DNA of 64,000 nucleotides, from the NCBI GenBank assembly GCA_028532855.1, contig JAQQAL010000017.1, forward strand, positions 108,166 to 172,165. The letters run 5' to 3'. Made by a program: the position numbers and the translations under genes. Shown in pieces: positions 4,058 through 7,296 of this stretch. The notes under the pieces are model-generated. The model was given only the letters and a program-made list of their open reading frames with translations. It made no database searches and was not told the origin of the DNA. The stretch's first letter is position 1. Each line of letters begins with the position of its first letter. Source of the DNA: Candidatus Thalassospirochaeta sargassi. Its GTDB lineage: Bacteria; Spirochaetota; Spirochaetia; UBA9216.

Positions 4058-4086
4058 TAAAAAAAAAGACCGGAATAATTCCGGTC
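4058..4086 (-). terminator. Rho-independent terminator of the HesB-like gene
   Basis: On the minus strand the inverted repeat GACCGGAAT/ATTCCGGTC (4068-4086, 9-bp arms with almost no loop) is followed by a run of about ten U (A tract at 4058-4067 on the plus strand). It sits directly behind the selenoprotein-like gene and supports its UGA at 4110-4112 as the true stop. Confidence 0.8.
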
Positions 4087-4109
4087 TGCTCAACCGCAGG
4101 CTGCTTTTT

Positions 4110-4394
4110 TCAACAGGTACCGCCTGCTGAGGATTGAATTGTTAATCCCTTCTGCCAGAAGGTTTCGATATAATCTATAACAGCATTTTCGACAACATGT
4201 TTTATACGTTCCTCAAACTGAAACATAAACCCATCATGTTCAAGGGCGGTCATATTTTCATCAGACTCATCCAGAGCCATACTCAACTGAGGACCGCCTC
4301 AGCCAAACCCCTGAATGAAAACAGTAAAAACCTTTCCCGGTTTTGAATCTGCAAATTCCTTCAGAGGACCCTTTGCCTTATCAGTAATAGTCAT
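4110..4394 (-). CDS. HesB/IscA-like selenoprotein (in-frame UGA read as selenocysteine at residue 32)
   Basis: Ninety-four residues when the TGA at 4299-4301 is decoded. The region around it reads QGFG-U-GGPQLSMALDES, which matches the HesB-like selenoprotein family, where Sec (or Cys) sits in a G-G/F-G-U-x-GP-x-L-x-MALDE context. Coding character continues on both sides in the same frame (KVFTVFIQGFG before, DGFMFQFEE after) and ends with SSAGGTC and a UGA just ahead of a terminator. An in-frame TAA four codons upstream makes ATG 4394 the only methionine start; the ribosome-binding site is weak. HesB/IscA proteins are linked to iron-sulfur assembly; the role of the Sec family is not established. 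Alternatives are a Cys-to-stop pseudogene, which I consider less likely. Confidence 0.82.
4272..4289 (-). promoter_or_regulatory. Candidate bacterial SECIS stem-loop
   Basis: Nine bases downstream of the UGA codon the mRNA can fold as CA, a GUU bulge, GAG, loop UAUGG, CUC, UG. The bulged U and the G in a small apical loop about 20 bases from the UGA are the features expected of bacterial SECIS elements that recruit SelB. The stem is short and was folded by eye only. Confidence 0.45.
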
Positions 4395-4464
4395 TTCCGG
4401 AAATTACTATATACTTCTGTAATAGTCAAGAATCTATCTCTCCTATTTGACTACATCCTTTTTC

Positions 4465-6595: not shown

Positions 6596-6756
6596 TACTC
6601 ACCCCTTATATAATCTTTTACAACCAGGAAGGATAGTTATTCAATTATATAACAAAAACCCCGGGAAAGTTTGTCACTTAGTTGCTGAAATAGAAATTCT
6701 TGCTTTGTAGTTTAAGGGGTAGTATATTTAATAGATAATAATTTTAAGGAGTGACA

Positions 6757-7296
6757 ATGAGTATCAAAAAAGAGATGCAGGATGCAATTAATGATCAGAT
6801 AAATGCCGAAATGTTCTCAGCCTATCTTTACCTATCAATGGCCAGCTGGTTTGAAGATGAAGATCTTCCGGGATTCGGCAACTGGATGAGATGTCAATAT
6901 ATGGAAGAAACGATGCACGCAATGAAGTTCTTCAACTTCCTGAATGAACGCGGCGGCAGAGCAGAACTTAAACCTATTGAAGGTCCAGATATAAACTGGA
7001 ATTCATATCAGGAAGCGTTTGCAGCCGTTGTGGCCCATGAGGAATATATAAGTGAAAGAATTAACAAACTTGTTTCACTTTCAAGAAAACTTGAGGACTA
7101 CGCGACTGAAAGCTTTCTAATGTGGTATGTCGATGAACAGGTTGAAGAAGAAGATGAAGCCAATAAAATTCTTGCGAAGTTAAAAAGACTTAAGGAAGAC
7201 TCAAACGGACTTCTTCGCTTCGACAGCGAGATGGCAGGTAGAGCAGTAGCTGCTGCTGCAGTCCCGACAATTCTTGATCAAGCTTTGGTTGATTAA
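6757..7296 (+). CDS. Bacterial non-haem ferritin
   Basis: 179 residues, standard length for FtnA-type ferritins that oxidise Fe(II) and store ferric iron in a 24-mer shell. Ferroxidase residues E18, E51 and H54 are visible in NAEMFSAYLYLSMASWF and YMEETMHAMKFF, and the second pair lies in AHEEYI and EQVEEE. I used ATG 6757 because AAGGAG at 6746-6751 is correctly spaced; a GTG at 6751 would overlap that site. The gene stands alone and is closed by a strong terminator. Confidence 0.95.
   Translation: MSIKKEMQDAINDQINAEMFSAYLYLSMASWFEDEDLPGFGNWMRCQYMEETMHAMKFFNFLNERGGRAELKPIEGPDINWNSYQEAFAAVVAHEEYISERINKLVSLSRKLEDYATESFLMWYVDEQVEEEDEANKILAKLKRLKEDSNGLLRFDSEMAGRAVAAAAVPTILDQALVD

Follow-up and report, generated by a model that had tools for sequence, protein, structure and literature searches.

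A conserved gene with an in-frame UGA encodes a predicted IscA-fold selenoprotein in Candidatus Thalassospirochaeta sargassi

Introduction

HesB-like selenoproteins numbered 11 in a 2006 survey, whose sections available to us list none for Treponema denticola, the spirochaete of its Table 3 (PMC1794560). In the accessible part of a 2016 paper, a table of bacterial selenoproteins ranks them sixth by organism count, with 90 proteins in 86 organisms (PMC5029168). These two papers were the only ones that a literature search on HesB-like selenoproteins in spirochaetes turned up; supplements aside, their available text does not report such proteins in spirochaetes (PMC1794560, PMC5029168). A 2026 review, in the portion at hand, lists the HesB-like selenoprotein as TIGR01911 with the motif UxGP (PMC13188914). 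In Methanococcus, a HesB-like protein was found via mutagenesis and 75Se labelling; the excerpt available describes its function as not clear and cites an unpublished observation that a disruption mutant was unimpaired in nitrogen fixation (PMC11097638). Here, we describe a gene of this kind in a 64,000-nucleotide (nt) stretch of the genome of the spirochaete Candidatus Thalassospirochaeta sargassi (the window; contig JAQQAL010000017.1), at positions 4110-4394. It is highly probable that the gene is complete, that its in-frame UGA is read as selenocysteine (Sec) and that the product has an IscA fold, the three taken jointly.

Results

The gene and its main elements, including a hairpin resembling a selenocysteine insertion sequence (SECIS), are located as follows.

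4110..4394, minus strand: coding sequence of the predicted selenoprotein, ATG at 4394-4392, 94 codons, stop TGA at 4112-4110; the frame is conserved, holds one internal TGA and is under purifying selection before and after it
4299..4301, minus strand: in-frame TGA, codon 32, predicted Sec; pairs with the first cluster Cys of the IscA family, from the class matches and the alignment to 1nwb and 2apn
4113..4115, minus strand: codon 94, C-terminal Cys, the sole other conserved Cys/Sec position; invariant in 11 of 11 rows and paired with the second cluster Cys of 1nwb and 2apn
4264..4278, minus strand: SECIS-like hairpin GGCUC-UGGAU-GAGUC, beginning 20 nt downstream of the UGA; five pairs in 7 of 7 genes, under codon constraint, missing from all eight Cys-type genes that were scanned

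The 94 codons at 4394-4113 are interrupted once, by an in-frame TGA as codon 32 (4301-4299), within the residues QGFG-U-GGPQLSMALDE, and the final stop is again TGA. A preliminary description of the window, made from its letters, had given the frame, the TGA and the coordinates correctly; the strand had to be corrected to minus, since translation of the plus strand of 4110-4394 gave no matching frame.

When 394 class genomes were searched with the protein, 13 of them gave a total of 14 matches. The seven best of these 14, that of the window's genome included, are full-length with one TGA each, in the same column, and their genomes are distributed over three families of the class; the remaining seven have no internal stop and carry Cys at the TGA column. 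Truncation at this column was found in none of the 14, so that homologues ending at the codon or having neither Sec nor Cys there, named in the preliminary description as evidence to look for against its own reading, did not appear. Cys also occupies the Sec column in all four non-TGA rows of alignment A4, and the final stop is TAG instead of TGA in two relatives. Two near relatives, G006 (81% complete) and G002 (86% complete), were searched and gave no match. Because six other genomes keep the full-length frame and the same-column TGA with no other stop, frame and TGA are beyond chance.

The ratio of nonsynonymous to synonymous substitution rates (dN/dS) was calculated mainly for the same-genus trio of the window's genome, G003 and G004. 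It was 0.10, 0.16 and 0.22 before the TGA and 0.14, 0.27 and 0.19 after it (window-G004, window-G003 and G004-G003, respectively), and the unsaturated values with G005 were 0.30 before and 0.39 after the TGA for G003, and 0.22 after it for G004. Purifying selection before and after the TGA, together with the full-length frame in the six other genomes, bears out the continuous coding that had been noticed around the TGA. On sequence grounds, this is a real, predicted selenoprotein gene and not a broken one.

The window's genome (3.84 Mb in 53 contigs, listed as 100% complete and 1.9% contaminated) has a selenocysteine tRNA (tRNA-Sec) gene above the Rfam cut-off, with the anticodon TCA according to ARAGORN, and selA and selB adjoin it, both above curated cut-offs. 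A selD gene is likewise above its curated cut-off and, by reading of the sequence, is Cys-containing and lies downstream of a NifS-like gene. The lack of selB or selC, which the preliminary description had held to be decisive against Sec decoding, is thus not what this genome presents. tRNA-Sec exceeded the cut-off in all six other TGA-form genomes versus one of eight comparison genomes, a set chosen from hits and near relatives and not at random; the lone positive one, G225, is a genome whose match has the Cys form. The Sec genes, the same-column TGA and the Cys homologues support the early inference that this organism decodes UGA as Sec, and for codon 32 we predict such decoding with near certainty. 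SelA, SelB, SelD and tRNA-Sec of the genome itself would carry it out: SelB would bind the hairpin at 4278-4264 and bring Sec-tRNA to the UGA, and the final TGA, or TAG in the two relatives, would terminate translation.

The hairpin begins 20 nt past the UGA in all seven TGA-form genes as GGCUC-UGGA(U/A)-GAG(U/C)C. All 35 pair cells of the stem are standard, the sole variable pair being G-U or G-C, and the U immediately before the stem is invariant (7/7). A scan of eight Cys-type genes found the motif in none. The preliminary description had proposed a bulged-U hairpin at about this distance; the hairpin stands, and the bulge does not, there being none in the stem of 5 base pairs (bp). Codons +7 to +11 were identical in 74 of 75 same-residue pairwise comparisons versus 325 of 721 outside +1 to +12, counts that are pairwise and hence not independent, and the highest codon agreement of any five-codon window clear of the hairpin was 0.78. 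The model for bacterial SECIS elements, as stated in the available part of the 2026 review, comprises a loop of 3-9 nt with a G among its first two nucleotides, a stem of 4-16 bp, a UGA-to-loop distance of 16-37 nt and an energy of at most -7.5 kcal/mol (PMC13188914). The hairpin agrees with the four rules of geometry (a 5-nt loop with G as its second nucleotide, a 5-bp stem and a UGA-to-loop distance of 25 nt). The energy varies with the segment that is folded: the 48 nt from the UGA of the window's gene fold at -12.0 kcal/mol and the hairpin by itself at -6.1, and the minimum-energy fold of this segment contains the hairpin in five of the seven genes. A 65-nt segment surrounding the UGA showed nothing unusual in its folding (z-score -1.05, 28 of 200 shuffles equally good), and a 25-nt segment gave a modest result (z-score -1.99, 4 of 200).

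At the protein level, the best NCBIfam model was NF038090 (IscA_HesB_Se), followed by TIGR00049 (33.5 bits versus a cut-off of 58.8); PF01521 gave 17.4 bits versus 26.3. NF038090 and TIGR01911 (HesB_rel_seleno) each match all seven TGA-form members at an E-value of 0.01, and the motif UGGP, present at Sec in all seven, fits the UxGP of TIGR01911. Among the 394 class genomes, NF038090 had no match above its cut-off, the best TGA-form match reaching 65.1 of 85 bits. The HesB/IscA-like assignment made earlier therefore holds in kind, the models ranking NF038090, TIGR00049 and TIGR01911, and fails as formal membership, all scores lying below the cut-offs; judged by its sequence, the protein is a divergent relative of HesB-like selenoproteins and not a formal member of the curated models.

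An IscA fold is predicted. The AlphaFold2 model, built from seven sequences, had a predicted local distance difference test (pLDDT) score of 87, with IscA, DsrR and SufA as best structural matches, and the profile aligned over its full length with the IscA-family structures 1nwb and 2apn; folds missing from the VIA listing are no evidence either way. Conservation of Cys or Sec is limited to two positions, Sec32 and the terminal Cys94, the latter unchanged in 11 of 11 rows. In 1nwb and 2apn, a conserved Cys aligns with Sec32 and a Cys close to the C-terminus with Cys94, residues which we take to be cluster ligands.

Several results weigh against the joint reading. The protein scores 52.5 of the 85 bits set for NF038090 and 27.5 of the 66.35 set for TIGR01911; the hairpin alone folds at -6.1 kcal/mol, short of the published limit of -7.5, and is missing from the 48-nt minimum-energy fold in two of the seven genes (G004 and G007); and no stem pair is changed on both sides among the seven genes, four of the five never varying. 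Because those four pairs never vary, shuffles for covariation are uninformative, and because covariation gave no positive support, support for the stem comes from synonymous constraint.

As to function, Sec32 may, with less confidence, stand in place of the first IscA cluster Cys and Cys94 in place of the second, and iron or an iron-sulphur cluster would probably be bound through these two residues. As the third cluster Cys is missing, the iron or cluster would be held weakly or between subunits, and the selenol would make the site more reducing. We advance a role as iron or iron-sulphur cluster carrier tentatively, at a little under an even chance. Speaking against it, DsrR has the same fold, a common fold proves no function, and a Sec/Cys pair fits redox chemistry equally well. 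The tail, residues 91-94, has a pLDDT below 50 in the model. A-type carriers have three cluster cysteines, C...CxC (seen here in L080, see below); this protein offers Sec32 and Cys94, and its chain ends at the second position. No iron-sulphur assembly operon was seen by eye in the contexts read, in which no family search was made.

Alternatively, Sec32 and Cys94 could form a selenenylsulphide pair, making the selenoprotein a small, metal-free reductase built on the IscA fold, which we consider possible but on balance doubtful. Sec32 and Cys94 as the sole conserved Cys/Sec residues and the missing third ligand fit such a reductase, and the part of the 2026 review consulted holds that most uncharacterised selenoproteins are likely redox proteins (PMC13188914). 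However, the fold and both positions agree with the metal or cluster ligands of IscA-family proteins, and Sec lies in UGGP with no CxxU or UxxC motif around it.

Searches of the window's genome detected no canonical A-type carrier: PF01521 at an E-value of 0.001 gave zero matches, and TIGR00049 at an E-value of 1 recovered the selenoprotein gene, a Cys-type paralogue on contig C9 and a weak match on C14 that is ferredoxin-like by reading. G171, another TGA-form genome, also carries an A-type carrier above the TIGR00049 cut-off (L080, G171:C69), so the Sec form and an ordinary A-type carrier can coexist. The Cys-type IscA-like paralogues in the genus, the window's genome included, all have GxGCGxP and a Cys near the end and score below curated cut-offs:

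L084 883-1197, minus strand: Cys-type paralogue (G000:C9, window's genome)
L085 612-902, plus strand: Cys-type paralogue
L026 1501-1782, plus strand: Cys-type paralogue

Protein-database relatives found with an alignment numbered 64, of which 53 are 55-59 amino acids (aa) long; 13 of these 53 were read, and they start a few codons past the TGA position. One, P0003, has the same sequence as the window's gene from shortly after the TGA onward. Pieces of this kind would suit a broken or mis-sequenced gene, in which the TGA really ends translation and the frame beyond it is dead, but such a gene is extremely improbable given a TGA common to seven genomes of three families, dN/dS of 0.14-0.27 after it, a conserved SECIS-like hairpin and Sec machinery in the genome. 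Decoding of the TGA as tryptophan, or general read-through, has in its favour that the Sec column of the 11 longer database relatives, which are protein sequences only, holds W in six (P0008, P0009, P0010, P0012, P0060 and P0062) and C in five; W is expected there if gene callers applied a code with TGA as tryptophan, and we attach almost no probability to this decoding, since the non-TGA genome homologues read have Cys and never Trp at that column, tRNA-Sec, selA, selB and selD are present, and the gene itself terminates on TGA, where two relatives have TAG. On conservation, Sec machinery and Cys homologues, we reject the pseudogene, read-through and tryptophan readings.

Two further elements flank the gene.

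4404..4429, minus strand: conserved upstream element TTGAC-N11-TATATAGTAA, which may be a promoter or operator and lies 9 nt ahead of the start codon; matched with 0-2 mismatches before all seven Sec genes
4067..4087, minus strand: intrinsic terminator AGACCGGAATTATTCCGGTCT followed by 8 T; 9 pairs, 22 nt after the stop

The second is the terminator already remarked on after the final UGA, now placed as a stem at 4087-4067. The upstream element lies at most 150 nt before each of the seven Sec genes (the other six in L022, L023, L024, L031, L032 and L033), a match that 0-6 of 2000 first-order resamplings of each region equalled, versus 3-8 mismatches at the best site before eight Cys-type genes, three of whose starts are off by 3 to about 18 bases. 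The window's genome has exactly one zero-mismatch site. No regulon emerged there, with 12 sites at up to two mismatches versus 18 in a reversed control, and 12 sites for TATATAGTAA alone versus 14 in the control, eight of the 12 within open reading frames. A consensus sigma-70 scan of the minus strand did not call the element; assuming a weak -10 at a spacing of 17 nt, we infer that transcripts of the window's genome, G003 and G004 would start near the ATG. The Cys homologue of G001 (L025), a genome without tRNA-Sec over the cut-off, retains TATATAGTAA upstream and lacks TTGAC, so the element may be independent of selenium. The element is sometimes followed by an inverted half (TATATAG-N8-CTATATA in L033, TATATTA-N6-TAATATA in L031). 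A likeness of the window's promoter to an IscR-type site was dropped, as by eye it was not common to a relative.

Neighbouring genes, named by reading, gave no clear functional link in the window's genome or its relatives. On the same strand, an upstream ABC-2-type permease gene stops 70 nt short of the selenoprotein gene, and an ABC-2-type transporter pair lies upstream in the window's genome, G003, G004 and G005. Downstream, the window's genome, G004 and G005 have a DNA adenine methylase-like gene and G003 (L018) does not; the more distant genomes have different neighbours. Past the transporter pair, about 2.4 kb from the selenoprotein gene, is a ferritin-like gene (6751-7296, plus strand); in G005, a ferritin-like gene likewise lies past the pair (L028 5422-6009, minus strand).

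Discussion

The spirochaete clade scores below the cut-offs of both curated models and is represented in the searched protein set mostly by pieces of 55-59 aa. Its sequences reduce the functional question to Sec32 and Cys94, in a genome with no canonical A-type carrier detected; with two residues and no such carrier, the iron-carrier and redox readings become directly testable. It is unlikely that the clade is a distinct IscA-fold selenoprotein class with its own dedicated cis-regulatory element, serving as a two-ligand (Sec and Cys) iron or cluster carrier that replaces the undetected canonical one.

Compared with IscA, SufA and ErpA (TIGR00049), the protein has Sec instead of the first Cys, its chain stops at the second, and the third Cys of CxC is missing. 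With DsrR (2k4z) it shares the fold; DsrR is not known to have the conserved cluster cysteines. The Cys-type paralogue of the window's genome and its relatives, three of which were aligned at 29-35% identity (the window genome's own not among them), differ in having Cys for Sec and no SECIS-like hairpin, and resemble it in that GxGCGxP occupies the Sec column and the chain has a Cys at its C-terminus or close to it. From the HesB-like selenoproteins of NF038090 and TIGR01911, compared here through the models and not through named members, it differs in scoring under both cut-offs; what it has in common with them is small size, likeness to IscA and a UxGP motif that holds the Sec, here UGGP.
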